DNA of 64,000 nucleotides from Porodaedalea pini (Eukaryota; Basidiomycota; Agaricomycetes; Hymenochaetales; Hymenochaetaceae), in assembly GCA_002794775.1 (NCBI GenBank), contig NBAY01000117.1:1-64000 (forward strand), given 5' to 3'. The translations under genes and the position numbers were made by a program. The notes beneath the pieces were generated by a model. That model was not told where the DNA came from. It saw nothing but the letters and a program-made list of their open reading frames with translations, and made no database searches. Every line of letters starts with the position of its first letter. Position 1 is the stretch's first letter. Shown piece after piece: positions 10,487 through 34,147 of this stretch.

Positions 10487-10488
10487 TA

Positions 10489-12707
10489 CTGCCCTTTTCA
10501 GAAGTATTGTCACACATCAAATTCATGTGGTTTTGACACGTCTTGTGGCATAACTGCCAAAATTCGAGTAAATGATGATTTACTGTGTCAATTCCTCACG
10601 ATACATGTTCATTAAGCACTCAAAAAAAAGTACTTGCTTATCCAAATCCGAATCTGTAAAAATATCCGAGGTTAGATGAATATTTTTGTCAAAATAAGTC
10701 AAACAATGTCGGCCAGCCCTGTTTCAACACCTCACCCTCACTATATGCAAAAATCATACCCCTTTCCTCTCATCCCATAATTTTTTTTTCTCCACCTGTA
10801 AATTAGGTTCACATGTATGGCAATCCTGTGCATGAGTTTGGTGTCATTCTGTGCACTATTCGTGGTGTAATGGGGATGTTTCTGTTCTTCGGACACCTGC
10901 TCTCACCTGGGTTTGGACAGTCCATTTCATACAGCTCTGCCAATTTGACAGGTAAAAATACAAAACTTCTTGCACTACATAGACAATCCTATCTACTATA
11001 GCCTGGGTTATTTGGGGGCCCCTCCACCTTGATTTGACACTGTAGTGGTAATTTATTTTCGACCTGCGCACTGTAGCACCATGTGCCACCTGCACATCTG
11101 AAGTATAGAAGTTGGAAACAACATGTTGCTTCATAAGTACTACTCCATCTCAAGAAGAGATGGCCACAGATATCTCACCAGCATACCAGGTGAGCGTATC
11201 CACCATGCAGGACCACTAGTAGATACACAAGTGTATGTTCATGCAAACAGACTCGAAGACGTCCTTTCAGATCCAGAACAGCAACAGCTGGCAGCCTCTT
11301 CTTGGTCAAGAGCAAGGCATAACCATTGTTGCCCACAGTCTAGACAGAAGAGCAGATGGCTTCACTGAAGAGAGGTTGGTGTGCTACAATGGTCAGCGGT
11401 ATATGCAGATTAGGGGTTGGCACATGAACACATTCACCATGAAAACACCCTTCTCTCCCACCACGATGATGCATGGCAAGGCCCTCTCAAACGATGCGCA
11501 ATCCATTCTCTTTAAGCTGCACCAATCTAATGAGTTCACCATGGACCATCTTTCTGCGTTGATGGACATCAATTGTCGAACAGTCTATCAGATCATAAAA
11601 GACTGGGAGGCTACTGGGGGTGTCAAGAGAGATAGAAAGAGGACTGGCCAGCCAAGGCTGTTGGACTATCTGGATGTACAGGTGAGGTGTAGTGTGCCAG
11701 TGCTGATGGACGTTGCTCATCAGGATTCCATTTGCCACCAGTATCTCCTCAGTTCAGTCGATCAACACAGGGACCTATTCCTTGATGAGCTGAGGCAGAA
11801 GCTCGGCGCATCTTCTGGTAAATACATTTCAGACTCTATGATATGGAGGATGTTGGAATGGGCTGGATTCACTATGAAAAGGGTATGGTCTTTCATTTTC
11901 AACTAGTTGAGCCCAAATCCAACCTGGTCGAAGATTTCAAAGAAGGCACACAAATGCAGCGAGACTGCGTGAATACAATATTATCTCAAAATTGGCAAGA
12001 AATACAAAGCTGAACAGCTCATGTTCATTGACAAAAGTGCTTGCGACCATTGCACTTTCTTGAGAAAAAAGGCATGGGCTTTACATGGGCATCAAGCCAG
12101 CCACAAACAGTTTTTCACCAGGGGAAAGAGGTACACATAGTCCCATCATACCTCAGGGTGTCATATGTCAAACTTCCTCCAGGTATTCAATCCTTCCAGC
12201 AATCTCTCTTGACAGAATGCTTGACTGCAAATTCAATACAGAATCCTTTACCACTTTCATCGCACGTCTCCTCAATCATACGGAACCTTTTCCAGGACCA
12301 AACTCAGTCATTGTCATGGACAACTGTGCTATCCACAAGTCGAATGAAATTCATGAGTTGATCGAATCCAGGTGCAGTGCTTTTTCCTCCCGTGCATCGC
12401 TCCAGCACTGATGCATTCTGTAATCATGTGTCTAGTGGCATGAAGCTTGAATTCCTTCCTGTGTACTCTCCAGATTTCAATCCAATTGAATTGGCCTTCT
12501 CGCTACTCAAAACTCGACTTCGATGACTTGCCCTGCTGGAAGAAGGAGGAGATGTTGTGGTGTATGCACGGCTTTATGGAGAGATTATGTCGATTAGCAC
12601 AAATGACTGTTGAGCCTTCTACCAACACTGCGGGTATGTCCGCTGGCCCTGGTGCGTAGCTACCCTCAATTCTCAAGTGAAATCCTCTGACGACGTGCTC
12701 AGGTGAA
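10489..12707 (+). repeat. Left terminal inverted arm (2,219 bp)
   Basis: Homologous, in inverse orientation, to 32689-31552 plus 24388-23308. Both arms measure 2,219 bp after removing the Gypsy insertion. Homology stops abruptly at CAGGTGAA on both sides. Differences are few and mostly transitions. Confidence 0.9.
11235..12635 (+). pseudogene. Tc1/mariner (DD34E) transposase, left arm
   Basis: Spliced frames give an HTH region (TMDHLSALMDINCRTVYQIIKDW), a GQPRLLD linker and a DDE_3 domain: MFIDKSAC (first Asp), VMDNCAIHK (second Asp) and SPDFNPIE (Glu), with 34 residues between the last two. Inferred introns are 11682-11741, 11883-11942, 12131-12182 and 12372-12435. The likely start is 11466 (MMHGKAL), in frame with an upstream ATG at 11235. 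Three in-frame TGA codons (after SETA, after KTRLR, and after TNDC near the C-terminus) break it; at least two look like CGA-to-TGA changes. An earlier region (10813-11160) has open frames without recognisable domains. Confidence 0.8.
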
Positions 12708-12863
12708 TTGGCTAGGACTGCTAGGGATACGTAGATTTATAAATAAGCTCTAAATTGTCATTTGTTCACTTTTCGATCACTGTTACAAGCAGACTACATA
12801 AGATGAAGGAAATGTTTGCATAAAGAACAAAAGCAAAGTCATGAAACCAAGGAGAGGAATAAT
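12708..12863. other. Spacer between left arm and gene X
   Basis: Short AT-rich non-coding stretch immediately inside the arm; no inner inverted terminus is visible here. Confidence 0.4.
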
Positions 12864-14782
12864 TTACCATTGAGCCTGCTGAGGCATGGCAGCTGCAAGC
12901 AGCAGGTCCACGGGTGCCACAGCAGTGTTGACTTCAAGATTTGTGAAATCAGTTGTCACCATAAAGAACAGTGCTTGTAGGTCCTTCCCACGGCTCAGAA
13001 ACTTCATTTTGGCCTCAAGCACCGCATGTCCCCAAAGATGTTTCAAAGTTTCATCTGGTGGGGAGCTCGGGTGCACATATGAATTCCCATCCTCATGAAG
13101 CTCCCAGTCATCTACCAAGATTGCATACAACAGTTGCTTTTGTGCAAGCATAGTGCAAGCAAACATAGCATTGTTAATTTTTCCTTCCAACTCCTTCAAA
13201 GTTCCCTCGATTTGCATCGCAGCATGCTGTACGTAGTGAAGCCAATCCTCCTCCCCAATGGCACAGACTTTTGTGATCAAACATTGAAGTTTGATGGGTT
13301 GTAGGGTATTGTCACGATTTGCATAGACATTTTTGAGCTCAAGAAAGCCGTCACGGATGGTCTCAGCAACTACTGCAAATCTGTCTTGTTCACTCTGAAG
13401 TTGTCTCACCCATGCATGCAGCATTGCCACATAGCCTGGCAGGGTGGCAAGCCAGACGTCGAGTTCATCTGTATCAAACTCCCGATATTCTCTCATCATT
13501 TTTTTGCCCATTAGTTTACTAATCCACAACCTGATGACATTAGCACCAAGGGCTATTTTTTTCTAGAATGTTGTCCACACCAATGTGTCAAGCTGGTGGT
13601 ATGCATTGAGTGAGTGATACCATTCATTTGCCCATGGTCTGCCTTCCTTTTCTATTTTGTCTTCAGATATCTCCACTCTGATAAGTCCTGCATATTCTTT
13701 GAGTAATTTGGTTACAGCCTCCTTTGCAAGCGCATTTGCATCATCTCTCACCTTTGCCTTTCTTGCAGCTTTCTTTTTAATCAGTGCTGATGACTCCAAC
13801 CCCTGCTCTACTGAAAGCTGTGTGTATTCCGAGGTCAGGGTGTTGCTAGCAGATGCAACTGACACATGAGAGCTCAGCAAGACAATGCTCTCTTTGGCTG
13901 GTACATTGAATATGGAAGCATGGAGAGGGCTATACCAGTATTGTAGGTAGTCATTGAGGAAAAAATACATTCCGTCATAGAAATGACAGTGCCCATAGTC
14001 GAGGAGGTGTCAGCGCAGTATAGCATTATGCACCTTCACCGACTGATGATAAAATTAATCCCAGTAAGTTTGCTTATCAATGGCCAAAATAGGGACCTGC
14101 TTACGTTCAATATAAGAGCTTGCTCCAGCACATGGATCTGATTTTTGCATTGCGGCAGCTCCTGCATTGTGCAATTCTTGCTTAATGTCCACTGAAAACT
14201 GAACGTAGTCTAGCTTTTGATCGACTTTCGCATGGTTCTCCACCTGCTGCCACTCCCATTCTGCCTGCTGCTGCTCCAATTGTGCCTGCTGCTGTGCCAC
14301 TTTTTCTGCAAGTTTATTGATCTGTGCAGATAACTCCTCTCGCCATGTTTTTATACCCTGCTTTTGCTTCCTCCCTGCTGTCAGCCACTGTCCAGCGCAG
14401 GTCTCTTTCTTGCATTGGATTTCTAAGGATTTGCCTTTTTCTTTTGATGAGGCGGCTTCAGCTGCCACTGTCTTTGCCATCATCTGGATAAAGATCCCTA
14501 CAGAAGCTGCAAACCAAAGATAAATTGAAAGGGATGAAAAAAGAAAGCGACTTGCTCTGACTTACTGTCTGATGTTAACGATTCAAAGAGATCATGGGAC
14601 GCTGATGACCCACTTGTGCTGCTACTTAGCTGGTCCTCTTCCTCCATATGGCTCTCCATGTTGCGATCAAGATCTAGTGTGGTGCAACAAGGGGATATGT
14701 CCAAGACAACGCGACTGTGGGGCGTGAGTGATGAGAGGGAACAACACGGGTGTGAGCTTACATATATCTCAGCCATTGTCAT
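12864..14782 (-). pseudogene. Cargo gene X, unrecognised protein, three nonsense codons
   Basis: Minus-strand gene starting MTMAEIY at 14782. An intron with donor GTAAGTC follows exon 1 near 14572. The second exon encodes a Gln-rich coiled coil (QQQAQLEQQQAEWEWQQ) near 14250, then a long, otherwise collinear frame to 12864. Three in-frame stops interrupt it: TAA after YWD (about 14053), TGA about 20 codons later, and TAG after WTTF (about 13563). All fit C-to-T changes (CAA, CGA, CAG). Joined conceptually it would be roughly 600 residues. I recognise no domain. It is divergent from gene Y with 171 bp between starts. Confidence 0.65.
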
Positions 14783-14953
14783 GTGGACTGATCTCTATCT
14801 GGCAGGCCCCTAACACCTTACTGTACAGCTGGGATGAAGAAGTGTGCTAGGACTTGCCTTTTACAGTTTCTGACCTTATATACCCAGAGCACTAGCCAAA
14901 TGCTGTAATCTAAGCATTGCATATTCACTTTTCCATGTGGATTTTTTTCTCTT
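14783..14953. promoter_or_regulatory. Putative shared promoter of cargo genes X and Y
   Basis: 171 bp between divergent starts at the centre of the ancestral element. It includes TTATATACC near 14876. Inferred only from position. Confidence 0.35.
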
Positions 14954-16416
14954 ATGCCTCCTCAATGTACCAAAATCCCCTCCAAAAAGGCCAAAGTGGC
15001 TGAGGAAGCCAAGGCTATCAAAAATGTGCCCAAGTGTCCCTGTGGCCAACCAAGAAAGATCGCAGAAGCAGCTGCAAGCCCCAAAGCAAAACTAGCCATT
15101 TGCAAGACCCCACAAACCCCTGTGCCTCGAACGCCTTTCAATTTGAATGCTAAACTGACCAGGAGGCTGCTGAAAAAGCATGCCAGAAAGGTGACTTGGA
15201 TGTCTTGAGAATCTATGCTTACTTGTACTGACATTCTGCTTTTACTCTCTTCCTTTGGAACTGTTGCAAACAGGATTACAACAGCGACAACGATGATGAT
15301 GACGACGATGTCAACATCAATCCAGCTGCTGTAGCAGAAATCTCAGTCCTTGATGTGGCACGAGCCAGGGGTTATAATGACCCTGCTGATGAAACTCTAC
15401 AGTTAGACAGTACTTATGAGGAAGTTCCCGACTTCCCATCCAATGGCAGCTTTTTTTCGCTGGGTAAGAGATATTTTTACATCATAAACATGGTCTTACA
15501 TGTATATCAGATGGCCCTGCCGACTGGAGTATTTCTTCCCTTGGAACAGCCAAGGTATGAGGGATGGTTACATCAACACCAGCCACAGACAGGGCAGACA
15601 GAGACATGATTGAAGTAAAGGTCTTGGTTTCGGACGGCATCGGCAGATGGGAGCTGATCTTGTGCTCCGACATGCTATTAAATGATTTGTTGGTTGAGGT
15701 TGCAAAGGTGACAGGGGGCTCCTGCATCATCACACATCTTGGAGTTGAGGGCCCATGGTGTATCAAAGAAGGCCTGAACAAATACCTTCCAGAGTATCTA
15801 GATAATCAGAGTGCATTGGATAAGGTCTTTGCAGAGGTCCACAAACACTGCAAGGAGCAAGTGGCCAAAAAGATGAAAACCAAAAGTGATCCAAAGATCA
15901 TCATCAGAGATCTCCCAGAGGTTTGTTCAATTGTGTTTCATTGCCAGCTATTTCAACTCAGATATTCTGGCTGGATAGGATTCTAACGTGCAGGGAAAAA
16001 GGGGAAAAAAGACTCTGGCAAAAGCTAAGCTGACAGTAGCGCCACTCGATAACGCAAAGAGCACATACGATAATGAGATTGAGGAAATCACATGCAAGAT
16101 TGTAGTGAGCTTCACATGTGATGAGTATGGTGGTAAACTGTGCGCAATGCTGAAAGGTATGTGGGAGCATGTCACATACACTATGGAGGATGTCACTGAG
16201 CATGCGAAACTTCTTGTGAGTCTTAAATTGTCATTTCATGCACAAGTCTATATATCTCACTCAAAATGTCTATTGTTATTTCTAAGCACTGAAACATGCC
16301 AGGAGTGACCTACACTGATCCACCTGAGGCTCTTAAACTTCTAGATAGAAAGCCGCACAAGTTGTACTCAGCTGCAAGAGCAGCTGAGAGGAATGCAGAA
16401 GTTTATACCCATGTGG

Positions 16417-17254
16417 TGTAGGGGTGCAGACTCTTCTAATCCGAAGGGCGATTCAGGCTACAGCTTGTGATCGACCCAAGGGGGACTGTGGTGACTCGGT
16501 ATACTGAGAGGGACAACCTAAGTAGAGCAAGGTTTGAGATATGAAGACTCGGCGATACGGATACCTGTGGGATTCCAGTTGGACCAAGACTCGGGCAGGT
16601 AGAATCAGCACTTGTGGCAGTGGCCGAGGGCGTTCAGTGATTGGGTGGTGGAGTTCTGAGAGTCGGTGACAGAGTCAATGTATACTGTTTTCAGAATGAG
16701 AGTCGAGCGAGTAGTGCATAGTAATGCATGTAGTAGATTGTGGTCTAGAGGTGGAGAGGGAACTGTCTGTCTCTGTACTTGTCTCATCTCCCCTATCTCT
16801 GTCTGTCCCTGTCTGTACAAACTACTGTGAATTTATACTAAACTGAAGCAGAGAAAGCGGTGCAAGACTCGGCCAAGTCTGTGTGAATGGATGTGAAAGT
16901 GAGTCAGCGATCGGTCTGTGCACATCACACAGCCGATCGTTGTGGAGTGATGTTGGAGTCCCCAACCTACTCTTTTCATCTCCCACCACTGCACACCCGT
17001 ATCCCACATCCTTGTCCTACTTGCCTAATTCCTTCCACCTGTCCCCACGAGAGTTGGTCATCCATGTGCTGATCGAGTTTGTGTGACATCCCTCCATCCA
17101 ATTGTGTCCATACCAAGAATTATAATGAAGAGTTGGCTGCTGATTATGAATGAATAAACGGTAAAGTTTGGTGGCCGGTAAAGGGATTCAAAGGAGTAGT
17201 GTAAGTGAGGGAAGAAAGACTCGGCCGGCACGTAGGCAATGGTTAATCGCTACA
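16417..17254 (-). repeat. LTR (3' in element sense) of gag-protease element
   Basis: 838 bp, TGTAGGGG..CGCTACA, almost identical to 21942-22780; the differences I saw are mostly transitions. Confidence 0.9.
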
Positions 17255-18305
17255 TCTCTCGGGGGGGCCAGAAAAAAAGTGTTTGCGGTGTACATGAGAA
17301 GTGGTTGAATTGGAAATTAAAGAATGTGTAATGGGCGAGGTTTGGTGCATTCGATCAATGCCGAAATTGCAACCTGGAGTTTTGTGATGTGCACTATCTG
17401 CTGCGCGATGGTGTCACGGAGGTTCTCCAGTTGGACTGATGGGGCTGGGTGGTGTATGCTGGTCTGGAGGTCCAGGTGCCATGGGATAATCGCGATCTGG
17501 ATGAGGTCGTGTGTCACTGCCGAACGTAGACACTGATTCACTGGCAGTTCCAGGCCTTGATTAATGATGTATTTGGTGCAGTTATTGATCAAGGTCAGTT
17601 GGGGTCAGTACTGGATGTCAATTGCCATGTCCTTGAGGATGATCACATGGGGAGGCGTAATGTCAGTACTTTCCATTGTGGGCAGGGTCAGATGTTGTCT
17701 CTTTTTTCTTTTTGTTGCTTTCAGTAATGGCGTGTCTTTTTAAAGACGGTCGTGTCACCTGAGTTGTTTGTGTGTCTGTTTCAGGAGGACCTCTCTGTAT
17801 TGGTCATGCTGTTAGTCGGCGGAGTTCGCATTCATTGTGTGTTTCGGGCGATTCTTTCACATGCTTTGATTGGGTCCTTTGGCGGGTGATTCATGATAGC
17901 GATAGTGTCATCTTGTCATGGTCGGCGGCCGGTCGATCAGCAAATTTTTGTCTTTTAGTCTGTTGTTTCGTATTTTGTGTGTCTGGTGCCAGTCCATGTC
18001 TCTGTTTGGCCAGTTGTGATTTTGTTTGGTGGTCTTGGCTCGGTGTAGTTGTTTTCTTTGGTGTTTGCATTTGGTTGAGCATCTGTGTGTTGTGTGCCTC
18101 GTGGTTTCTTTTCATTTGGAGTGGCCTCATTGTTGAATGCTGGTGTTTGGTGTGTGCCTGGCTTCGTTGTGAGTGATCGGTAGGTTCGTGCTGTATTTGG
18201 TGTGGTCTGGATCCACAGTATAGCCTGGGTGCACCTCCTGTTCATCTCGTTGATTTGGTACTGATTCATTGACTATCAAAAATCCTCGTCCTCAGCTGGT
18301 TGCTT

Positions 18306-18905
18306 TCATCGTGTTTGTTCTCGAGTTGGAACTGATACATCTTCTTCTGTTACCGGGTGGATTAGTTCTAGTACCTGGTCGTCGATGTCTATATCCACCA
18401 ACCGAGCCTTGCAGTGTGCGAGGAATGGTCGGCCGAGTAGGATGTCGAATGGTGCTGGGTGTACGACCTGTGCTTGTACGAGTACTGAGAATCCTCCGAG
18501 TCCTATCCTGAGTTGTGGTATTAGTCTGAGCAATTGTGTCCTAGATGCATCTGCTGTTTCGATAGTGATTCGTTCATTGTTCAGAGTCAGCGATCCTAGA
18601 TGCTTCCACACATTTCGTGATAGTCCGATAAACGAAGCTCCAGTGTTGAGTAGTCCTTCTACCTCGACCTTTCCGTCCAGCCATACATTGACAACTTGAA
18701 TTGGTACGGTTGCTGGCGTGACTAAACCCTTTTCCGTTGTCTCATCCGGCAATCCTGGCCTGGGTCCTACCGAGTACATGGCTGTGCCTTCATCTTTGAG
18801 GTTTATCGGACTTCGTTTGGCCATCATTATGTCCTTGCACTTTTGTCTGACTTCTGGCAAAGTTGCCAACAGTTCTCGACCTGATATTGACACCATGGAA
18901 TCCAA
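18306..18905 (-). pseudogene. Retropepsin-like aspartic protease with Asp-to-Asn catalytic change
   Basis: Protease domain of the LTR element. The flap and second motif are visible (ILLGRPFLAHCKA). The catalytic triad that should read DTGAS reads NTGAS (LLNTGASFIGL). GAC to AAC here is a CpG-to-CpA change. The domain lies downstream of the gag frames in the same strand, separated from them by a frame-shifting 101-bp duplication. It is probably inactive. Confidence 0.75.
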
Positions 18906-19020
18906 GAATCAGCAAAATACTGCATCGACCATTGCAGGGTCATTAGCCAGTGTGTTGTATTTGAACTGAGGCCTCTGTACGTCTATTGTAGGATTGGGAT
19001 GTCCAGGCTTTGGTTCCATC

Positions 19021-19222
19021 CTTTCCCGTGGTGGTGCTACATGGACTTCCGTAGGCTTGCTCGGTGGCTGAGAGTCGGGTACCAATTCTTCGCTTGTCTT
19101 GGGCTCTGCCAATTCTGTCTCCTTTCCCGTGGTGGTGCTACATGGACTTTCGTAGGCTTGCTCGGTGGCTGAGAGTCGGGTACCAATTCTTCGCTTGTCT
19201 TGGGCTCTGCCAATTCTGTCTC
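19021..19222. repeat. 101-bp tandem duplication
   Basis: Two copies of a 101-bp unit starting CTTTCCCGTGGTGG at 19021 and 19122, with very few differences. The unit is not a multiple of three, so it shifts the frame between gag and protease. Confidence 0.85.
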
Positions 19223-19424
19223 CTTTCCCTTGCCTGTTTCTGTTTCTGGTACACCCGAGCCCATAGCTGGTTCGTGTCCCTCTCGTTCTTTTGCTGGTTT
19301 TGTCGGGTGCTTAGGTGAGGGAGAGTTGGCTTTTCCTATATTTGCCAGTCTCGCTGATCGTCTCTGCTGTCCATGAGAATTGCCCGTATCATCAAACCGA
19401 ACCTTTCTTCCTTCCACTACATAT

Positions 19425-21730
19425 TCATCCTGAATTTCTTTGATGTGGGCTTCCTCCATACCTGGCTGGGTCGGGGTATACATACTTGGTCCTGATATGG
19501 TGGGATAGTACATATCGAACAGGTTCGCCGTTTGGTGTGGTGGTGGATCTCATAGTGCTGTCATATCTACTGGGAGAGTCATACCCAGAGGGACCTCGTT
19601 CGGGTGGTCTTGATAGTACAAGTTCATTCGATCCAGTAGAGAAGAGCCTTGTGGTCCTGGTGGTAGTCGTGTTCCTCCCGGCATCACAACAAATCCTTGT
19701 GCATCCAAGGCCAGCAATTGTTGGTTCAAAAACGTGTCTCTGATCGTACAGTCTCTGAACAGGTGTGCGGTACTGTGGCACATGGCACACGTTCGGGGCC
19801 CTGTATTCCTTACCTGCATATTTCTGGCTGGGCGTGGGCCTCTCGGTGGTGCCCTGTATTCTTCGCATGGCCGTCTGTAATCGTCAGGTCACTGGTACTC
19901 CCACAGCTCGTTATGGGCATATGGCCGATCTCGAGCATACTGATCATCATAGTCTCACCTTTGATAATCCTCCTTCCTTTCACCCCAGAGATCCTGTATC
20001 TCAGCTTGTAAATCTGATACCATGCGTGTGAGCAGGCTCAGTTCTGAGTCCTCTCATTTGATGGGGGTCAGTGCGTATGGTCCAGATGCTGCAGCAACGT
20101 GTTGCTGAGTAAAATATGGAGGTGCTGTGGGTATCCCAAATGTTCCATACTGCAGTACTGCGTATCCTTGCTGCGCCCCAGGACCAGTTACTAGGACTCC
20201 TCCTGCTATAAGTCGGTCGAGTTCGTTGTATAGTACCGGTATATCCCAAGGAACACCAGCTGGGTGTTGAAAGTCAACCAACCGAAGTTGTTGTTCAAGA
20301 TGCTGATTGGTGAGCTGGTTTAGACCTTCTTGATAGAACCGCTTTTGATCTAGATCCAAAATGACTCCTTCTTGAACTAGATATGATGTAATATGCATAA
20401 AGCTTCGATGGTATTCTCCCAGGGCAGCCGTGCTCATCAAAACCTTGTTGGAATTCTTGGCGACAAAATTGATTAGATCTCCATAAGTGTATCTTATTGT
20501 TGCCGCCGGATAGAAGCCTAGGGCGGCTGTTTTGAATGACACAAAATTGTTTTGTCATGCCTGTGGGAGAGTTGACCATAGTAACTCCTCGTGTACCGGT
20601 GTGTAGTAACATGCCCAATTGATTTTCTGTAGATCGGTGATTCCTGCATTTGATCTTAAGATGTTAACCTCTTCGAAGAATCGTGGGATCCCTTCTGGTT
20701 CTACATCGGCGTTCATTGCTGGTACTCATTTGTCATGTCTGTTTGGCATTGTTGCTCCTGGAACCGGAGGATTTGGTCTGGTGATCGGGAGATTTCTAGA
20801 CTCGGCGAGGTCTGGGAGAGGATTGGCTACGTTGGGTATGGGTTGCATTGGTGGTGCCATTGGTGGGGCTTGTGAAGGTCCTTGGCTCAATCCTTGTGTG
20901 GTAGAATTAGCCATGACTGCTCTGACTATTGGTGGCACCATGATATGGAAAGTCGGCAGAGCCGGTGTGGGTACACGTGAGGGTAGAGTTGGTGTCCTTC
21001 TTGGCTGTTCTGGAGTCGAAGGGCACGTTTCCAGGTATGGGTCTGCAATCCTTGATATCGCAATAGGTATCAATCCTTCTGGAGTTGGTGGTGGCGGTGG
21101 CAGGACTAGTTCTTCCTCCAATGTTTCAGACCGATTCTGTGGTGATTCCAGGGTTGATTGTTCTTCTTGATTAGGGGTAAGATTCTCAGGTTCAGAGTTT
21201 TGTTCTGTTGGTACTTCTATTGGTCCTCCTGTTTGAATTAGAGGTTCGTCAATCCATCTTCTGATAGCTTGTCTACCCCAATTAAGTGGTGACCCTGGTC
21301 TTGTGGGTAACAACGATCCGAGTGATTGGTTTCGATATGGCATTGCCGATTCTTGTGGTCCTGGCGATACCAGTCTCCTGACCACTTCTTCAGATCTGGA
21401 GTGACTTTGTTCCCTTGTTGGACTCCTGTATCCTTTGAGGCCTGGGTTCCTTTCCTCACTTTCAGGTGTTCCTCTGGGTCTTTGAACCTGCTGACTGAGT
21501 GGTGTACTGGCAATGCTGAAATGCAACCTGTTGCTGGTTACAAAGCTTCCTGGGATACGAAGTGATATTGGGGTTTCGATGAGATCAGGTAAGATCCTTC
21601 TGGGTTCAACTGGTTGTCCTCGTTCCTGTGTGGGTTTTGGTTCAGCTACTGAGGGTGGCTGTTGTTGTTTGGTATCCTGAGGTGTGTTTTCTGGGTTGGC
21701 AATTCCAGATCGGCGAAAGGGTGACGTCAA
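19425..21730 (-). pseudogene. Gag-like polyprotein of the LTR element
   Basis: Begins MTSPFRRSG at 21730 with a long Pro-rich region to 20726. A globular capsid-like segment (20542-20054) and a CCHC zinc knuckle (CAMCHSTAHLFRDC, near 19780) follow. The frames are offset from one another, so at least two frameshifts separate them. The zinc knuckle upstream of the protease fits a gag-protease order. Confidence 0.7.
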
Positions 21731-21941
21731 TGCTTCTCTGGGAGCGTGTAAGATTCGAGGGGTGGCTGTGGCCGGTGGGCATCCTCTTGGTCTTCCTCAG
21801 CCCTGTCCTCTGGGTGGTGGTGGTGGGTTGCTTGGTTCTTCCTGAACCTTTGCTTGTATGCACATAGAGTGCTGAGGTGCTTCAGACGTCGACCTGATAC
21901 TTAGGCGAGGCACCTTGTCCCCCTCGCAGTGGGCTCCAATG

Positions 21942-22780
21942 TGTAGGGGGTGCAGACTCTTCTAATCCGAAGGGCAATTCAGGCTACGGCTTGTGATCGA
22001 CCCAAGGGGGACTGTGGTGACTCGGTATACCAAGAGGGACAACCTAAGTAGAGCGAGGTTTGAGATATGAAGACTCGGCGATATGGATACCTGTGGGATT
22101 CCGGTTGGACCAAGACTCAGGCGGGTAGAATCGGCACTTGTGGCAGCAGCCGAGGGTGTTCAGTGATTGGGTGGTGGAGTTCTGAGAGTCGGTGACAGAG
22201 TCAATGTATACTGTTTTCAGAATGAGAGTCGAGCGAGTAGTGCGTAGTAATGCATGTAGTAGATTGTGGTCTAGAGGTGGAGAGGGAACTGTCTGTCTCT
22301 GTACTTGTCTCATCTCCCCTATCTCTGTCTGTCCCTGTCTGTACAAACTACTGTGAATTTATACTAAACTGAAGCAGAGAAAGCGGTGCAAGACTCGGCC
22401 AAGTCTGTGTGAATGGATGTGAAAGTGAGTCAGCGATCGGTCTGTGCACATCACACAGCCGATCGTTGTGGAGTGATGTTGGAGTCCCCAACCTACTCTT
22501 TTCATCTCCCACCACTGCACACCCATATCCCACATCCTTGTCCTACTTGCCTAATTCCTTCCACCTGTCCCCACGAGAGTTGGTCATCCATGTGCTGATC
22601 GAGTTTGTGCGACATCCCTCCATCCGATTGTGTCCATACCAAGAATTATAATGAAGAGTCGGCCACCGATTATGAATGAATAAATGGTAAAGTTTGGTGG
22701 CTGGTAAAGGGATTCAAAGGAGTAGTGTAAGTGAGGGGAGAAAGACTCGGCCGGCGCATAGGCGATGGTTAATCGCTACA
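21942..22780 (-). repeat. LTR (5' in element sense) of gag-protease element
   Basis: 839 bp partner of 16417-17254, with the same TGTAG..CTACA ends, followed by target duplication GTGG. Confidence 0.9.
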
Positions 22781-23203
22781 GTGGCTCCACCTGATCCTGT
22801 GTTGTGCGAACCTCCTGTGATTAACCACCCCTCAACCATGCAGCCACAAGCCATGATGCAGCACCCTCTCATGATGCAGAATCCTCTCATGATGCAGACT
22901 ATGTTTGGCAACAACGTGATCAGTCAAAGGCGGCCTCGAGAGTTCCCATCCATTAGCAAGTGGCTGGACTCTCTGCACAAGGATATGGAATGGGGCCAAG
23001 CTCCCTGCCCTAACTATTGGATTTTTAGACAGTCATTCGAAGAGTGAGGTCTAGTTCACCTGGATGATATCCAAGGGCTGTCCAAGGATGACATATGGAA
23101 AATAGCGGAGGAGGATAAATTAGTCATCAACTTCAGCCTTGTCAATCATCTTCATCGCTATGTAGACCAAGATTACAACCTCATCGTCAATTCTCACAGC
23201 TAA

Positions 23204-23307
23204 ATGATCACTCCTAATCATTACTATCAAAGCATGTCAATAGAGGACTACACTCAAAAATGACATAGATTTGTTGATAATTGAAAGCTATTTCCATCCA
23301 TGTGACT
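23204..23307. other. Spacer between gene Y and right arm
   Basis: Short AT-rich non-coding stretch after the gene Y stop; no inner terminal repeat is visible. Confidence 0.4.
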
Positions 23308-24388
23308 TTCACCTGAGCATGTCGTCAGAGGATTTCACTTGAGAGTTGAGGGTAGCTATGCACCAGGGCCAGTGGACATACCTGCAGTGTTGGTAGAAGG
23401 CTCAACAGTCATTTGTGCTAATCGACATAATCTCTCCATAAAGCCGTGCATACACCACAACATCTCCTCCTTCTTCCAGCAGGGCAAGTCATCGAAGTCG
23501 AGTTTTGAGTAGCGAGAAGGCCAATTCAATTGGATTGAAATCTGGAGAGTACACAGGAAGGAATTCAAGCTTCATGCCACTAGACACATGATTACAGAAT
23601 GCATCAGTGCTGGAGCGATGCACGGGAGGAAAAAGCACTGCACCTGGATTCGATCAACTCATGAATTTCATTCGACTTGTGGATAGCACAGTTGTCCATG
23701 ACAATGACTGAGTTTGGTCCTGGAAAAGGTTCCGTATGATTGAGGAGACGTGCGATGAAAGTGGTAAAGGATTCTGTATTGAATTTGCAGTCAAGCATTC
23801 TGTCAAGAGAGATTGCTGGAAGGATTGAATACCTGGAGGAAGTTTGACATATGACACCCTGAGGTATGATGGGACTATGTGTACCTCTTTCCCCTGGTGA
23901 AAAACTGTTTGTGGCTGGCTTGATGCCCATGTAAAGCCCATGCCTTTTTTCTCAAGAAAGTGCAATAGTCGCAAGCACTTTTGTCAACAAACATGAGCTG
24001 TTCAGCTTTGTATTTCTTGCCAATTTTGAGACAATATTGTATTCATGCAGTCTCACTGCGTTCATGTGCCTTCTTTGAAATCTTCGACCAGGTTGGATTT
24101 GGGCTCAACTAGTTGAGAACAAAAGACCATACCCTTTTCATAGTGAATCCAGCCCATTCCAATGTCCTCCATATCATAGAGTCCGAAATGTATTTACCAG
24201 AAGACGCGCCGAGCTTCTGCCTCAGCTCATCAAGGAATAGGTCCCTGTGTTGATCGACTGAACTGAGGAGATACTGGTGGCAAATGGAATCCTGATGAGC
24301 AACGTCCATCAGCACTGGCACACTACACCTCACCTGTACATCCAGATAGTCCAACAGCCTTGGCTGGCCAGTCCTCTTTCCATCTCTC

Positions 24389-24817
24389 TGTTAGGCAGGA
24401 GTCCGGGAGACGACTTGGACTGGGCAAGCCTCAGCTGACTGTCATCTGGGATGTGCTATACTCAAGTGGGGACTCAGGACATGCTGTACTCAGGCTAGGT
24501 CATCGCAGAGGTAAGAGGATTAATACAAGACTAAACTAATACAAAGGGGACGAGTCTCACCTAGGTCATCATGGAGGTAAGAGGAAAAGCAGAACAAGGA
24601 GTTCATGCAATTCCTGAGACCTTATATAGTGATGACCGTGAGACTGTATTACCTAATGTTACATGAGCAGATGGAATGGAACAAATGAAGGTCATGTGAA
24701 GGGAGTGTGGGAAATGATTGGAAAGATGGTTAAATATAATAAAAAGGGAGCAATTGGAGTAAAGGAAATGGTAAAAGGAAAGTAAAAGAAAAATGGAAAA
24801 GTTTGAGTTCTAACATT
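24389..24817 (-). repeat. Gypsy-1 LTR (3' in element sense)
   Basis: 429 bp. It differs from 31120-31546 at roughly a score of positions that I compared, essentially all transitions, most in CpG-derived contexts. Confidence 0.92.
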
Positions 24818-24826
24818 ACCCCCCCC

Positions 24827-27800
24827 TCAAGGTTGGGCGTCCCAACCAACCAAGATTGTGGTTGTTTGGCTCGGTGTCAGCAAAGAGTGGATGGAGTTGT
24901 TGGCAAGGAATGTCGAGCTTCCAAGGAGTGCCTGGATGTTTTCGATAGAACTCAGTGATTGCCTCCTTCACATTCTCACCGAAGTCCGTTTCCGGTTGCC
25001 AAGTTGGTTTGTTGTACCCGACCCACTTGACGAGGTACTGTAACTTTCCTCGGTGCAGACATGAGTCAATGACCTCTTTGACCTTGTATTCCTCCTCATT
25101 GTCAACAATGTCTGGTGGTGGCGGTGGCAGCCATTTCTGGCTTTTGAAGGATGGTTCGATGGTGGGTTTCAGCAAGGCTTCATTGAAAACAGGGTGGACC
25201 TTTTTCCATTGCTTTGGGAGCTTGAGCTTGTATGTGCTCACTCCTACCTTGTTGATGATGTCAAAGGGGCCATACCACTTGTCAGCTAGCTTCCTTGTCA
25301 GCGAATCTGTGCTGATGTTTCGCCTGTTGAGGAAGACCTTGTCTCCAGCCTTTTACTCTACCGAGGTTCCTGCCATCCAGTCATGGTAGTGTTTCATGTC
25401 CTCTGCTGCCTTGACCAGGTTGTCCTTTGCAATGCAATGAGTCTCCTTGATGTGCTTCGCAAATTCTTCTGCTGACATGTTAGCAGATGAAGTTCACATT
25501 GTGTCAAAGCTCAGAGGATGATGTCCTGTATTTGCATAGAAGGGGGACATTTTTGTCGCCGAGTGTTTGCAGTTGTTGTATGCGAACTCTGCGAGGGGAG
25601 CCAGTCCTTCCAATCCGATTGCCGATGGTTGATGAAGAGCCAAAGGTACTGTTCGAGCTCTTGGTTAACACGTTCTGTCTGACCGTCTGTCTGTGGGTGG
25701 TATGCCATTGACAGGTTGCCTTCAATGTGTAGGAGTTTGTATAGCTCCTTCATCATTGACGCATCGAACTGTGTGCCTCAGTCATGGATAATCTTCTTCA
25801 GTAGGCTGTGGAGGCGGAAGACATGGTCATGGTATAATTGAGCCATGCCTTCCGCTGACAGTTTTGTTGTTGTTGGGATCGTGTGCATCTGCTTCGAGAA
25901 TCTGTCCATGAAGACGCAGATTGTATTATGTCCCTTCGAGTCTGGGAGCTCTCCAATGAGGTTGACTGTGATGATTTCCCAAGGGCCTTTGGGGACTGCG
26001 TTCGGATGAAGCGGTCTTGACCTTGACACTCTCAAGGCCTTTGTTCACTGACATTGGTCACACCCTTGAACGTACATTCTGACATCTGAGAACATTGACG
26101 CCCACCAGAAATCCCGCCTGACCAGTTCTACCATCTTCGATGCTCCTGGATGTCCAGCCAGTACCAAGTCGTGACACTCCCACAATATGGCCTCCTTCAT
26201 CATCAATGGCATGTACACCTTGCCTTTCATCCGCCACAGTCCGTCGACTTCTGTCATACCCGTTGGCCTCTCCGACTCGTCCTGCGCCCTCTGTGCTTCA
26301 CCCACTCGGTCCAACACCTCATCACGCAATGTTCTCACCACTCCACAATTCAACCACTTCTCCTTGATGAACATGATGCCGTCGTTGTCATCCTTGCCCT
26401 CATCGTAGCCCACCTTGCACGACAGCAGGTCCACCTTGCCTGTGGTCTTCCTCGACTTATGCTCAAGGTGGAAGTCAAATTCCTCGAGTTCTGTTCACCA
26501 GCGAGCTTGACAATAACTCAGTTTCTGTGCCGATTTGAAGTAGGTAAGGTTGGCGTGGTCAGACCAGATTTCGATCTTATGATGAGTGCTGAGGAGATAC
26601 TGTCGCCACTCCTTGAGCACCGAAACGATCGCGAGCATCTCCTTGTTGTAGATCTCATAGTTTCATTCTGCAGGCAGTAGTGCTTCTGACCTGTAGGCAA
26701 TCACCCTCCACTTGCCTTCCTGCTTCTGCAACAACACACCTCCAAGTGCAAAGTTTGACGAGTCTGCCTCTATGTGGAAAGGGCCCTCGTCATTGGTGAT
26801 TGCCAGGACTGGAGGTGAGCTGAGATGACGCTTCAGCTCCTCGAATGCTTCCTGCTGTTTGGTCTCCCATACCCAGCCCTTTTTTCCCATCAGAGACATT
26901 AACGGTTGGACCACCTTGCTGTAGTCCTTGATAAACCGCCTTAGCCAGTTCCCCATACCGAGGAACTTTTGCAGTTCCTTCAGGTTGCAAGGAGCTGGCC
27001 AGCTAGAGATCGCTTCCATCTTTGCCGGGTCAGCCTTAAGTTCACCATTGCCAATGATGTGGCCAAGGTATTTAACGACCTTGGTGTCGAACTCGCATTT
27101 CTCCAGTTTCAGATACAAGCTGTTGTAGATCCTGCGTATGGGTTGTTTAGGATCAGCAGTTCATTTGGGGACGTGTTTCCATTGAGTTTTGCAGTAAATA
27201 TATGCTCAGTATGAGCATGGGAAAAATCTCGGTACACGTCGGTACATGTCGGTATGTGTACAATGTGTTGGTATGCGTCAATACTGTAAGGTGCTCTGGA
27301 CCCAATGTGAGTGTCAGTACGGAGCTGGAACGAGTGAGATATCAACTCCGGTATGAGACAATAGTGATAACGGAGATGAGAATGAGAACGAGACAAGAGA
27401 TGAGACTGAAGATGAGGTTGCCATGAAACTAACTGTTGCGGAGACTAACTGCACGCACAAAAGCTGCCCTATCTGAGGGGAACTCTGCAGTAGTATTTTC
27501 CCCCCTTGCTACCTATGACAGGGAAGTCCCTAAATACAAGGTGCAAGAGATCTATCTACAGGAAAGTTATTCCAAAGTGAGTATAATGTGCATACCAGGT
27601 GAAACATAGAGCATCGGAGAGAAAACACTCGGAACATAAGAGAAACATAGAAAATCAAGAGAAAACCTGTCCATGCAACAACTTCCCCATTTGCCTCAGT
27701 CCATCATCCGGTCATATCGCAGCTCCACCAGAACTGAGATCCTCCAATCAGTGAGCCATCATCCATCATCAGGCAGATCTCCGGTACGTGTCCCAACTGA

Positions 27801-28659
27801 CTCCAATGACATAAGCTTTCCGGTACATCCCAAATTACCAGGGGGATCTTTCTAGCAATCTGCTGATGTGATGTCAGGCAAATCATCCTGTGTCTGGTAC
27901 ATGTCAATAGCTGTCAGAATGTGCAACAGATGGCCTCTAGAGGGATCTGCAGTGGTTGGCCACTCGTCGGTACTCTACACTGTTTTCCTGAAGGATCTGA
28001 AGTATGTGTCTCGATGTCTCGATGTGCTCCTCGATGGGTTCTGAGAGGATCAGGATGTCGTCGAGGTAAACAATGATTAGGTTTGCATAGATCAGGTCCT
28101 TGAAGATGTGATTGACAAATGCCTGGAATGTTGCCGGTGCATTACAAAAACCAAAAAACATTACTGTTGGTTTGAAGAGACCCATGTTCATGCAGAACAC
28201 TGCTTTCCACTCGTCACCTTCACGGATCCGGATGTTGTAATACCCCCAGCGAAGATCAAGCTTGGTGATGAACTTTGCCTTCTTGACCTTGTCGACAAGT
28301 TTGTCAATGAGGGGAAGAGGATACTTATTCTTGATTGTACCCTCATTAAGCTTCCGGTAATCCTGAATCAGGTGTAGGGACTTGTTGGCCTTCTTTATGA
28401 AAAAGAAGGGTGACGCCATTGGTGAGATCAATTTTCATATACAACCCGACTTCAAGTTCTCCTCAAGGAATTCCTTCAGCAACTCTTGTTCTGTCGGTGT
28501 CAGCGGATAGATCTTGCAGTCACTGGGTTTGAAGTCAGGTTTTAGGTCAATGATGTGGTCCCAGGGGCGGTGTTCCAGTAGCTTCTCAAATCCCTTCTCC
28601 GAGAAGACGTTGGCGTAGTCATTGAGATATGCGGGCCAGGATGCCTTGTCCATTCGCAC
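24827..28659 (-). pseudogene. Gypsy-1 pol: reverse transcriptase, RNase H, integrase, chromodomain
   Basis: RT begins near 28659 and carries YLDDILIL with the Asp pair intact (28057-28062). A solo LTR interrupts RT at 27124-27979; the frame resumes with LEKCEFDTKVVKYLGHI. RNase H begins near EADSSNFALGG, integrase has a zinc-binding HPGASKM..C..CQ region (26434-26045) and a core near 26035-25504. The C-terminus has a chromodomain (EEYKVKEVIDS..LVKWVGY..WQPE, about 25140-24990), which places it among chromoviruses. Frameshifts and stops separate the segments. Confidence 0.88.
27124..27979. mobile_element. Solo LTR inside Gypsy-1 reverse transcriptase
   Basis: 856 bp with TGTAGATCC..CTCTACA ends and 4-bp target duplication CTGT (27120-27123, 27980-27983). 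Removing it restores collinearity with the same region of Gypsy-2 (36880-36896). It has no coding capacity and no internal element. Its TGTAG/CTACA ends resemble those of the gag-protease element, but the sequences are different. Confidence 0.82.
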
Positions 28660-28662
28660 TTC

Positions 28663-30352
28663 TCACACCCCCCTCATCTCTTCCACAGCCCCCTTCTCAA
28701 TCGCACACTCCTCTGGACAGCAGGTGAATTCAATCGAACCCGTCTTCCAGTCGACCTCTGGGTTGTGGTGTCGAAGCCAGTCATAGTCAAGGAAGATGTT
28801 TGACGATGCCAGGGATGTCACCGCAAGGACAATCCTTTCCTTATGGTGTCCAATCATTAAGTTGACATGGATGTATTTTTCAATCAAACCGGCCTCGTTG
28901 TGTGTGCCATCTGCATTGAGCACCACAAGGGATCTGATATATTGCTTGGTCTCCAACCTGTATCGTTTGACAAACCTCACATCGATGCATGACCCCGTAC
29001 ACCCCCCGAATCCACGAGGGCATGGGCATCCACCTCTCTCGCTTCACCCTCCATGCTATGTCCGATGTTCAGGAGGAGGTCCAGCTGGCGTCTGCCAGTT
29101 CCCTTCATGAACAGCTGCTCGTACTCGCTATTCTCGTTCCCACCAGTGGGGACTTCGTAATCAGAAAAACTATCGATGTTGTTTGCATCTACATATTGTA
29201 CAGATGGTTGGTTATATTTTATCAAGTCCAGATTCAAAGCCCCTTGTTCTTCTCGGTCAGTTGCCCCGATGGCTGCACCTGACCACTTGCAAAATCCTGT
29301 GAGTCGACGACCTCTTCGTCATTGTCTTCCTCCTCCACATAGTCCTCCACAGTCATTCTCTGAGTGTCTATGACTTCCTCAAAGGCTGATTTCTTCATCA
29401 CGCCCAGCTTGTTGGCAAGAAGGCGATGCTCACCTGGCACCATCATCTGCAGCATGCACTGCATGATTGTCTTTCCTTGCAGGCATGTGTCTTTAAAGTG
29501 ACCCAGCTTGCCACAGATCCAGCATGCCCATCATTATTGCGCCTCATTCATCGAGATGTCTATTGGCTGCCCAGTGCCTCCAAAGGTGACACCAGTTGCG
29601 TCGCGCTTATCAACATGGGGAGCCACCATTTGGCGGTGAGCCAGAGGTGCCTGTTGTTGTTGCGGGCATGGCAGAAGTGGAAATGCATGACCTCATTGTA
29701 TCGCTCAGATCTGCTGTTCACCCCGGTCAATCTCAATTGCCTTCTTCTTCCAGTTGTTGTTTTTTGTTGGGACCGGCATCGACCTCAACACCCCATGAAC
29801 TACCTCGATGTTCATCACACACTTCAGGCAGTCGCAGATGATGGTGTCATCCATTAGGCCTGCCATCATGATGATCGTGTCAAGCTTTTGGAAGAATTTG
29901 TCGGCAGTAAGATCTTTCTGGACCTTGGTTTGGAACTCTGCCAGCACCTTCTCCTTTCAGTTCGGATTGTTGAATGAGGCATCCAGTTGTTCCTGGAATC
30001 TGGTCCAGCTATCTGTGAAGCTCACGATGCCATTTGTTGTGAACTCCTTGACGTAGTTTTGTGCCCATGTCAATGTGTTGCCACCCCTGAGGTAGGAAAG
30101 GGTGAGGTAGATCTTGCTCAATGATGAGGGGTACTTTGTAGGATTTGCTGAGACAAAGAGAGTGACTTCTCATTGGAAGTCAAGGTAGTCATTGCCACCA
30201 GCAAATTTGCATGGTTGGGCAACATCAATTGAGGGGGTTTGAGTGGTGGGAGAGCGTGTTGCTTGTTGAGTGAAGGCACCCACAACAATCACTGTGATCT
30301 GTTCCATCTGCTGCTGGCTGAAACCTCCTGTTGACATTTCTGGTTCAGGCAT
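28663..30352 (-). pseudogene. Gypsy-1 gag and protease
   Basis: Gag begins MPEPEMSTGGF near 30352 and runs through a capsid-like helical region with stops after YLDFQ and near 29960. The protease region (29237-28663) carries HALVDSGG, a retropepsin DSG site. An acidic linker (VEEEDNDEEVVDSQD) lies between. Several stops and frameshifts are present. Confidence 0.75.
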
Positions 30353-30360
30353 CAGTGTCG

Positions 30361-31119
30361 AGGGTTCAGGGGGGGTTGGGGGTGACAGATCCCTATGGGT
30401 CTCATGGTATGGTCCTGGAGTTGGCAGTAGGTTGATGGTAGATGTTGACAGTGCAGGTGATGATGGGACAGCTGGGGGCCACCTAGCTCTCCTTCCTTCT
30501 TTGTTTGTCGAATACCAGCTGTGCTGGATGTCACTCCACCAGATGTCATATACAATGCCACTATTGTTGGTCGCGACATAGCCTGGTTGGTCTGGGTCCC
30601 AGCGTGCTGATGCAGGGAGAGCCCATTGTTGTTCGTCAGTGATATCTATCTTGATGACGGTGGGGGAACGGGGATCGGTTGTGCGTTTGATCCAGGATTA
30701 CGCCAATGTTGAGCAGGTTCGTCGGCGAAATTGATGACGAGGCGGTAGGAACCGAGCAAGATGACAAACAATAGTGTCGACGACACCTGTACTCTTCTGG
30801 TTACCCACGTCCACATCAGGTGTGTGCTCCACCAAAGGCTAATTTGTAGTGCCAGGGTGGGAGAAGGTTTCCCAATCGAGATGGCAACTCGTCCAAGGTC
30901 AAGTTGGTGTCCAAATGTGGTAAGTGTTTTGGGGAAAGTTGGTTGGAAAGTTTATGTAATACACAAACGTCTGAAAACGTCCAGGCAGGGTTGAGGGTTG
31001 TCGTTTTAGGGGGTTTACATGTCAAGTCCATCGAGGGGAGTGCTCCTCTAGACCGAGTGAAGGCGAATCGACAGCAACAACATACGCTGGGGATGAGCCT
31101 GGGTGGGGTTCTGCTTTTA
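30361..31119. other. Gypsy-1 untranslated leader
   Basis: Region between the gag start and the 5' LTR on the minus strand. The segment next to the LTR reads TAAAAGCAGAACCCC, probably the primer-binding region; it is conserved in Gypsy-2. No host gene is present. Confidence 0.5.
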
Positions 31120-31546
31120 TGTTAGACAGGAGTCCAGGAGACGACTCGAACTGGGCAGGCCTCAGCTGACTGTCGTCTGGGATGTGCTATACTTGAGTGG
31201 GGACTCAGGACACGCTGTACTCAGGCTAGGTCATCGCAGAGGTAAGAGGATTAATATAAGACTAAACTAATACAAAGGGGACGAGTCTCACCTAGGTTGT
31301 CACGGAGGTAAGAGGAAAAGCAGAACAAGGAGTTCATGTGATTCCTGAGACCTTATATAGTGATGACCGTGAGACTGTATTACCTAATGTTACATGAGCA
31401 GATGGAATGGAACAAATGAAGGTCATGTGAAGGGAGTGTGGGAAATGATTGGAAAGATGGTTAAATATAATAAAAAGGGAGCAATTGGAGTAAAGGAAAT
31501 GGTAAAAGGAAAGTAAAAGAAAAATGGAAAAGTTCGAGTTCTAACA
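31120..31546 (-). repeat. Gypsy-1 LTR (5' in element sense)
   Basis: 427 bp partner of 24389-24817, followed by the CTCTC target duplication. Confidence 0.92.
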
Positions 31547-32691
31547 CTCTCTCGATGCCCCCAGTAGCCTCCCAGTCTTTTATGATCTGATAGATTGTTC
31601 GACAATTGACGTCCGTCAACGCAGAAAGATGGTCCATGGTGAACTCATTGGATTGGTGCAGCTTGAAGAGAATGGATTGCGCATCGTTTGAGAGGGCCTT
31701 GCCATGCGTCATCGTGGTGGGAGAGAAGGGTGTTTTCATGGTGAATGTGTTCATGTGCCAACCCCTAATCTGCATATACCGCTGACCATTGTAGCACACC
31801 AACCTCTCTTCAGTGAAGCCATCTGCTCTTCTGTCTAGACTGTGGGCAACAATGGTTATGCCTTGCTCTTGACCAAGAAGAGGCTGCCAGCTGTTGCTGT
31901 TCTGGATCTGAAAGGACGTCTTCGAGTCTGTTTGCATGAACATACACTTGTGTATCTACTAGTGGTCCTGCATGGTGGATACACTCACCTGGTATGCTGG
32001 TGAGATATCTGTGGCCATCTCTTCTTGAGATGGAGTAGTACTTATGAAGCAACATGTTGTTTCCAACTTCTATACTTCAGATGTGCAGGTGGCACATGGT
32101 GCTACAGTGCGCAGGTCGAAAATAAATTACCACTACAGTGTCAAATCAAGGTGGAGGGGCCCCCAAATAACCCAGGCTATAGTAGATAGGATTGTCTATG
32201 TAGTGCAAGAAGTTTTGTATTTTTACCTGTCAAATTGGCAGAGCTGTATGAAATGGACTGTCCAAACCCAGGTGAGAGCAGGTGTCCGAAGAACAGAAAC
32301 ATCCCCATTACACCACGAATAGTGCACAGAATGACACCAAACTCATGCACAGGATTGCCATACATGTGAACCTAATTTACAGGTGGAGAAAAAAAAATTA
32401 TGGGATGAGAGGAAAGGGGTATGATTTTTGCATATAGTGAGGGTGAGGTGTTGAAACAGGGCTGGCCGACATTGTTTGACTTATTTTGACAAAAATATTC
32501 ATCTAACCTCGGATATTTTTACAGATTCGGATTTGGATAAGCAAGTACTTTTTTTTGAGTGCTTAATGAACATGTATCGTGAGGAATTGACACAGTAAAT
32601 CATCATTTACTCGAATTTTGGCAGTTATGCCACAAGACGCATCAAAACCACATGAATTTGATGTGTGACAATACTTCTGAAAAGGGCAGTA

Positions 32692-34147
32692 AAACGATAG
32701 CACTGATTAATCAAGTTAGCAGGATTTGGTTCCCCTAAATGAATAACTGGATTGGAATGAATGTAAGAAAGGAGGTTGTAACAGGCAGTGAGTGAAGAAT
32801 GATGTTTTTAAAATCTGTGCTGGGCATCAGGAAGAAGATTGTTTTGTTTGAAAAAAGGTTGTAGAAAATTATAAAGAACTTGTTCGAAGAGTTTGCCGAT
32901 GGTGTCAACTAGAGTAATGGGATGGAAAGCCCAGGGTACAGAAAAGTCTGTTTGCTTGGGTTTGGGGATAAAAGTAACCAATGACATTTTAAAAGGAAGA
33001 GGAAAATGACCCAGCAATAAACATTTGGAGAAAAGATCAGTGAAAAACTGGCCATGATGTTCGACCAGGAGTGAAAGATGCTTATATGAGATGTGGCTGT
33101 TGCCAGGGCTCATCTCCTTGTCTATGCCATGTAGAGTGTTGATGACATTATCGGTCGAGATGATTGGGCTATCCCACAGAGCTGGGAGGTGAACTGACTC
33201 TGGCCTGGACATCAAAGGCAGGAAGAAAGTCTGCCAAAAGAGTGAGGACTTGTTGTCTTCAGTTAGCAAAAAGGATCCATTGGGCATGTGAAGTGCTCTG
33301 ATAGGGGATCAATGGCAAGCAATGCCAATAAACTGATTTTGCCAAGCTGAGCACTGATTGGAATTTTGTAGGTGTGCACTATAATAAGCATTCTTTGCTC
33401 TGGATATTTCAATGTCCAGACAATGTTTGGAGTTGGGAGTTGGATCGCGACAATGTGCATGGTATAGAGTGGAACATGCTTCAGACCACCATGAATTGGG
33501 GCCAAAGTATGTACAAGGCTTTTGCTTGTTCAAGAACACCAAGGCAAATCCTGAAAAGGACTCCTGAAATGAAAATATAAGAGCATCCAGCACCTCTGCC
33601 AAATCAACGTTGTCCAAAGAGAAGGGGAAGATGTTAGAAGCACAAAATTCCACTACAAATGTGGGTAGATCGTGAGAGTGAATCAAATGAAGGGAAGGTT
33701 GGGTCAGGGAGGGAATGACATTAATATTAAAAGAAAAGTGAATGGGCATGTGGTCAGAAGAAATGTCTAGTGAGGGGTCAGAAATGATAATTGATTCAAG
33801 GAGTTGGGGAGAAAAATCATCTGAAGCAATGATAAGATCAATAATAGAATAGTGATTTGTTGCATGATAGAAATACATGGGTTGATTGGGAGGGTTGCAA
33901 ATGACGAGGCCACAATTGCTGATCCAGTCAGTGAGAGCATGAGAATTAGACAAATTAGCTGTCTGAGAGGGAAGCAACCAGAGTTGGGAGTGACAATTGA
34001 AGTTGCCCACAACAATATGAGAAGGAGAATCAAGAGCAGGCAGGGCATCTTTAAATTCATGGAGTGCAGGTGAACTGTAAATGTTCCAAAGAAAAAGGGG
34101 GGATAAGGAGTCTCACAAAATTGCAATGATAGATAAGTTGGGTGAAG
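32692..34147 (-). mobile_element. LINE, middle part (endonuclease C-terminus, reverse transcriptase N-terminus)
   Basis: The right side (34140-33309) is the C-terminal half of an exonuclease/endonuclease/phosphatase-type nuclease: VGNFNCHSQLW-like motif near 34010 and SSDHMPIHF near 33740 (catalytic Asp-His). The left side (33287-32808) enters the RT with FIPKPKQTDFS and HPITLVDTIGKLFEQVL. The frame continues past stops to the TA target at 32690. Confidence 0.85.

Follow-up and report, generated by a model that had tools for sequence, protein, structure and literature searches.

The window analysed here, a stretch of 64,000 nucleotides from the basidiomycete Porodaedalea pini (contig NBAY01000117.1), contains a transposon-like block with long inverted arms that is inserted in a LINE (Table 1). 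Each end of the block carries CTGCCCTTTTCAG with zero mismatches (10489-10501 on the plus strand and 32677-32689 on the minus strand) and adjoins a TA dinucleotide. With up to one mismatch allowed, that sequence has two matches in the window, at those two ends only; none of 100 shuffled sequences gave two. The arms align in inverted orientation in two segments (10486-11631 against 31547-32692 at 99%, and 11626-12707 against 23308-24389 at 98%), the right arm being interrupted at about 24390-31546 by an insertion flanked internally by direct repeats. A direct comparison of the inner arm end with the outer end sequence revealed no likeness between the two. The nested insertion in gene X itself includes a 101-bp unit in two tandem copies that are 99% alike (19019-19220).

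Table 1. Features of the element and its nested insertions (window coordinates)
Feature	Position	Strand	Remarks
TA, left end	10487..10488	.	
Whole element with nested insertions	10489..32689	.	~8.7 kb without insertions
Left arm (TIR)	10489..12706	+	transposase stop codon = arm end
Transposase gene, left arm	11424..12706	+	five exons by splice model, start uncertain
Gene Y	12864..14659	-	about three exons, by comparison with the C72 copy; coordinates approximate
Gene X	14954..23203	+	split by nested insertion; coordinates approximate, exon 4/5 joint uncertain
Nested insertion in gene X	16417..22782	.	LTR-type; coordinates about
Right arm, inner piece	23309..24389	-	
Nested insertion, right arm	24390..31546	.	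LTR-type; terminal direct repeats ≥300 bp
Right arm, outer piece	31547..32689	-	
TA, right end	32690..32691	.	

When the two LINE flanks are joined with a single TA, 36 of 41 reported genome matches run across the joint (69-81% identity). Of the remaining five, two are the flanks of the window itself, two those of the corresponding copy on contig C23, and one is a short piece that ends short of the joint. On the minus strand the joint falls inside 257 codons of uninterrupted reading frame, which contain the motif DIQGFFN, taken here to be RT motif A. Because the joined flanks match LINE copies through the joint, we conclude that the block at 10489-32689 entered one LINE copy at one TA as a unit. 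A second haplotype, represented by C23, carries this insertion too.

Aligned with a single arm on contig C106, the left-arm transposase gene contains stop codons at three in-frame positions as well as a gap of 15 bases. A transposase protein was spliced by eye from the C106 arm, with the symbol X put at its one stop; it scored 104.7 bits against DDE_3 (cut-off 28.6) and 163.1 bits against IS630 (cut-off 100). The D-E spacing, counted by hand on this spliced protein and dependent on the splice model, is 34 (DD34E). A protein search found 650 relatives. Of the 120 that were listed, those near the top with a name come from mushrooms, examples being a 50% match in Sanghuangporus vaninii and a 47% match in Tricholomella; a further relative, P0006, shows 90% identity over 39%. 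By its transposase type, its DD34E spacing and its insertion at TA, the element is assigned to the IS630/Tc1/mariner superfamily. Under the same splice model, all 20 near-complete arms (those with no more than 48 gap columns across the gene) contain one or more stop codons.

These results bear out much of an earlier, sequence-only reading of the locus, which had described both ends as lying inside TA, a DD34E transposase in each of two inverted arms (family membership being scored here on the C106 arm), arms without inner terminal repeats, and entry of the whole block into a single TA of the LINE.

Gene Y is open in the copy on contig C72, has stops in that on C28 and a shifted frame in that on C100; gene X has stops in all three. 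Gene Y has one relative, P0001 (78% over 61%), and there is a hint, short of proof, that P0001 and the transposase relative P0006 come from the same element elsewhere. Three relatives of X were found in two Sanghuangporus species (39-44% identity, one over the full length). Pfam gave nothing above cut-off in Y, in two pieces of X (the first X exons being outside the scan), or in the related proteins P0122, P0123 and P0001, and NCBIfam, at E 0.01, had no hit for P0122 or P0001; no recombinase family was thus found by these scans in Y, the X pieces or the relatives. The end of X, which we had presumed to be a SAM-like domain, received no support from a sequence search of solved structures (best E 0.56). 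Both genes may be accessory genes of the element rather than cargo.

Copies across the genome

The window's own assembly (53 Mb, 201 contigs) was searched with the first 1.5 kb of the arm and with the core, giving 46 reported matches for the former (40 of 333 candidates scored) and 45 for the latter (40 of 59 candidates scored). Uninterrupted copies on C72, C28 and C100 are about 8.7 kb long, with arms of ~2.23 kb and a core of ~4.2 kb. The X-Y core lies directly behind the arm in 26 of the 40 scored arm matches and 7-8 kb further inward in four; within 12 kb, no core was found in the remaining ten. Five of those ten belong to elements whose opposite arm has a core, two are both arms of the C78 copy, and three are C4:21212, C192 and C23:1011, the last of which is near a contig end. 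TA adjoins all 29 listed termini, some of which represent one terminus at two loci.

Two copies have altered ends. The C42 copy lacks the outermost 124 bp of its left end (L012:1-1193; G000 C42:393000-394192), which borders on a different palindromic repeat; the C74 copy is shortened in a similar way and bears a terminal piece of 27 bp in inverted orientation.

The sequence-only reading had offered two alternatives for this arrangement: two copies that moved together with X and Y, or a distinct long-TIR family that always carries both genes. The former corresponds to a composite resembling Tn10, in which two separate Tc1-like elements surround X-Y and each arm is also mobile alone. Inverted arms that both contain the transposase gene are what such a composite would display, but the inner arm end has no end-like sequence, and in 12 of 13 arms the boundary coincides with the transposase stop codon, immediately after which the sequence turns to one of the same two core ends (the C78 arm ends earlier). 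An element with one arm only was not met for certain among the 40 scored arm matches (of 333 candidates). We rejected the composite because its arms would need two ends and have no inner one, and consider it very improbable. The search of the genome for arms and X-Y together returned repeated copies with the arms outside, X-Y inside and TA at the flanks, as a distinct family would predict. Since the arms are without inner ends and the 8.7-kb arrangement is found repeatedly, the evidence supports the conclusion that the block belongs to a long-TIR family carrying X and Y. With 40 of 333 candidates scored, the evidence falls short of the word 'always'.

Exchange between the two arms of a copy

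We compared the arms of 13 two-arm elements and the single C106 arm, all haplotype and arm comparisons being made within one assembly. The two arms of one element are 98.47-100% identical in all 13 cases, and arms at different sites 90.14-95.76% identical (325 comparisons). Three sites are found on two contigs each, which we took as haplotypes: window/C23 and C100/C97, where both flanks are common to the two contigs, and C14/C54, where the left flank only is common (98-99%). Same-site arms are 96.84-98.30% identical between haplotypes (12 comparisons), and at every one of the three sites these allelic arms are less alike than the two arms within either haplotype. Without exchange the opposite would be expected, because the shared insertion predates the allelic difference.

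The differences among arms are dominated by one type of change. Relative to the C106 arm, C>T or G>A changes make up 629 of the 704 exon differences in ten arms (the exon columns miss one base), and 857 of 1152 differences over these arms are of CpG type. At the CpG positions of the C106 arm, every loss found in one arm of a copy recurs in its partner in C100 (75 of 75, the product being identical at 74), in C42 (74 of 74) and in C14 (70 of 70). Agreement is loosest in the window copy, whose arms have 70 losses in common, 61 of them to the same product, and 13 that are unshared. Alleles, by comparison, disagree at 29/112, 29/112, 25/89, 24/76, 19/46 and 44/113 CpG sites. Stop codons covered by both arms occur in both, except at codon 329 in C12 and codon 149 in C54.

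The small differences between the arms of one copy could also be produced with no exchange at all, if the copies were young, their arms identical at insertion, and the differences between sites derived from different parent copies. That account predicts the reverse of what is found at the three shared sites, where alleles differ more than the arms of one haplotype, and the preponderance of CpG-type differences points to decay after insertion. Given a faithful assembly, we reject it at the three allelic sites, and we regard it as the least probable of the explanations considered. We take the comparisons instead to show that the two arms of a copy, also in decayed copies, exchange sequence in place after insertion.

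Where differences between the arms do occur, they may be clustered. In the C12 copy, none of 1729 columns differs before column 1785 and 14 of 455 differ after it, beside a break in the right arm (P = 2e-10); in the window copy, whose insertion point is near column 1140, columns 988-1566 account for 26 of 34 arm differences (P = 9e-10). The limits of both clusters were picked after inspection of the data. When the limit is instead fixed at 450 columns, 27 differences in 901 columns lie near the insertion of the window copy and seven in 1317 elsewhere (P = 4e-6), and the C97 copy displays no clustering (0 of 901 near its insertion and five of 1331 elsewhere). Exchange between the arms looks patchy.

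The orientation of the core was compared at the same three sites. The C100 and C97 copies have both flanks in the same orientation and their cores in opposite ones, and on this evidence the core is clearly inverted between haplotypes at one of the three allelic sites. At C14 and C54 the left flank is common and the core pieces appear in reverse order; the comparison is complicated by a mirrored flank at C14 and by another repeat that cuts the right arm at C54, and the core is probably inverted at this second site. The window copy and C23 have cores of identical orientation.

The repeat that cuts the C54 right arm (L032:1515-3501; G000 C54:201514-203500) has ten or more further matches at 98-100%, and many positions carry its first 97 bp on their own. 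It contains a reading frame that, in our judgement, looks like Cdc48, and may be a gene-bearing mobile repeat.

Merging of reads from the two arms during assembly could create both a false likeness of arms and a false inversion of the core. All of the comparisons were made on the contigs of one assembly, and some of the mirrored flanks described below are 100% identical over 1500 bp, which speaks for such merging. Against it stand the private insertions found in arms (window, C97 and C12), the private clustered differences, and the fact that the haplotype contigs lie ~2% apart in arm, core and flank. We therefore view an assembly artefact as improbable, if somewhat less so than the composite.

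The ends of the element also occur on shorter sequences. A 26-base end pattern, with up to three mismatches, has 310 matches in the genome (the reversed control has none), and among the roughly 100 of these that are listed many form facing pairs 1.0-1.08 kb apart. We read ten such loci (L041-L050), and set L050 aside because its ends face outward. Five of them (L041, L042, L043, L048 and L049) are palindromes of 1.0-1.1 kb with TA ends as in the large element; they have only the terminal 26-29 bp in common with it, and their halves are 5-10% different. L044 and L045 are shorter elements. L046 and L047 (2.5-3.4 kb) retain 0.5-0.7 kb of arm sequence from the large element but enclose a different core, and their arms (~0.5 kb) are 99.6 and 99.8% identical within each copy and about 93% between the two. 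Homogenisation is seen, as judged from these copies, in arms of at least 0.5 kb with a spacer, and appears to be absent from spacer-free palindromes.

Mirrored flanks

At three of eight sites (C72, C28 and C14) the right flank is the inverted left flank up to the TA. The mirrored stretch extends over 481 bp at C72 (99.4% identity), 345 bp at C28 (97.7%) and about 6.7 kb at C14, where the stretches compared were 100% identical over the inner 1.5 kb and a further 1.5 kb, and 99.3% over the outermost 0.7 kb. The flanks are unlike at the other five two-ended sites (C100/C97, window/C23, C49, C12 and C78). C54, examined as a potential unmirrored allele, does not contain the DNA that lies beyond the C14 mirror on the right, and a second full copy of the C28 outer left flank was not found in C28 among 40 scored candidates.

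One explanation for the mirrored flanks is that pre-existing palindromes received the element at their centres. The C72 copy indeed sits in a palindromic repeat of ~799 bp that is found at dozens of places (its pieces are at G000 C72:73281-73760 and 82465-82944). Parts of both C72 outer flanks lie close together on C67, which may be an allele without the repeat and the element. However, each flank of the C72 copy includes 473 bp of the 799-bp palindrome, and ~148 bp are therefore doubled; C28 mirrors 345 bp cut from within a repeat that extends further on the left, together with 36 bp beside it; and the C14 mirror extends over about 6.7 kb. None of the nine short copies has flanks mirrored beyond 6 bp, although the contrast of 3/8 with 0/9 falls short of significance (P = 0.08). 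Landing at palindrome centres keeps a considerable chance, somewhat below even, and we believe it slightly more likely that a break at one end was repaired from the opposite arm, with copying continuing outwards.

A proposed mechanism and its relation to known elements

The explanation that we favour, at a probability of roughly 0.85, is that these copies represent one long-TIR IS630/Tc1/mariner transposon whose arms exchange sequence in place and whose core at times inverts. Each 2.2-kb arm carries a whole DD34E transposase gene, directed inward toward a 4.2-kb core with Y on the minus strand and X on the plus strand. The transposase would act on the common terminal 26-29 bp and move the whole element by cut-and-paste, and the same enzyme might also mobilise the short palindromic elements with matching termini. 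Conversion and inversion would be the work of host recombination between the arms, an agent that we propose because both are seen in copies with a broken transposase, and decay would consist of the loss of methylated CpG. Counted against this explanation are its dependence on one assembly, the stops that the splice model places in all 20 near-complete arms, the uninverted core at window/C23, the unclustered differences in C97, the unhomogenised 1-kb palindromes and the two stops confined to single arms. A broader and more speculative proposal, which we advance tentatively and think rather doubtful as a whole, is that a lineage turned its ends into a gene-bearing palindrome: conversion would keep the ends matched and could restore a damaged copy, outward repair would generate mirrored flanks, and X and Y would be accessory.

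Several known systems resemble parts of this picture. Galileo and foldback elements likewise have long inverted ends and undergo ectopic recombination; Galileo belongs to the P superfamily, unlike the element described here. The Galileo transposase is located outside its TIRs. Sex-chromosome palindromes also have gene-bearing inverted arms kept near identity through conversion, but are chromosomal and non-mobile, unlike the present element.

Within the Tc1/mariner group, elements usually measure 1.3-2.4 kb and have one ORF (PMC4188875, PMC7325037), a usual but non-defining trait from which our element departs with its ~8.7 kb, two transposase copies and genes X and Y. Tec elements of Euplotes (PMC7325037) are also DD34E members with long TIRs (about 700 bp) and multiple genes; their three ORFs include a site-specific recombinase, whereas here the TIRs are 2.2 kb and the transposase is present twice. 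The same source describes Minos-type elements, again of the Tc1 family and DD34E, with TIRs of several hundred bp, and gives Tc1 elements one ORF and an average of ~1300 bp, in contrast to 8.7 kb, two extra genes and a transposase in both arms. KolobokP transposons share a eukaryotic host and a composite-like build; according to PMC9587614 they belong to another superfamily, with direct repeats that have their own short TIRs, a transposase between them, and solo repeats that are common. TIR-TIR recombination in a Wolbachia IS inverts the transposon inside, as we propose for the core (PMC3004938), but that case is a bacterial IS, and here there are long gene-bearing arms and conversion. We found no Tc1-type element with a transposase inside kilobase arms in the portions of the open-licence literature that were covered.

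What is new is unusually direct evidence, drawn from comparison of copies, that points to arm-to-arm exchange in a long-armed Tc1-type transposon. Exchange between transposon ends is assumed more often than it is observed; here it can be followed in dead-looking copies by means of two haplotypes, a CpG decay marker and nested insertions, with core inversion alongside. This Tc1-type family also exceeds the customary length several-fold and has its transposase within the repeats, and with arms of this length the likeness of the ends would be unusable for dating an insertion.
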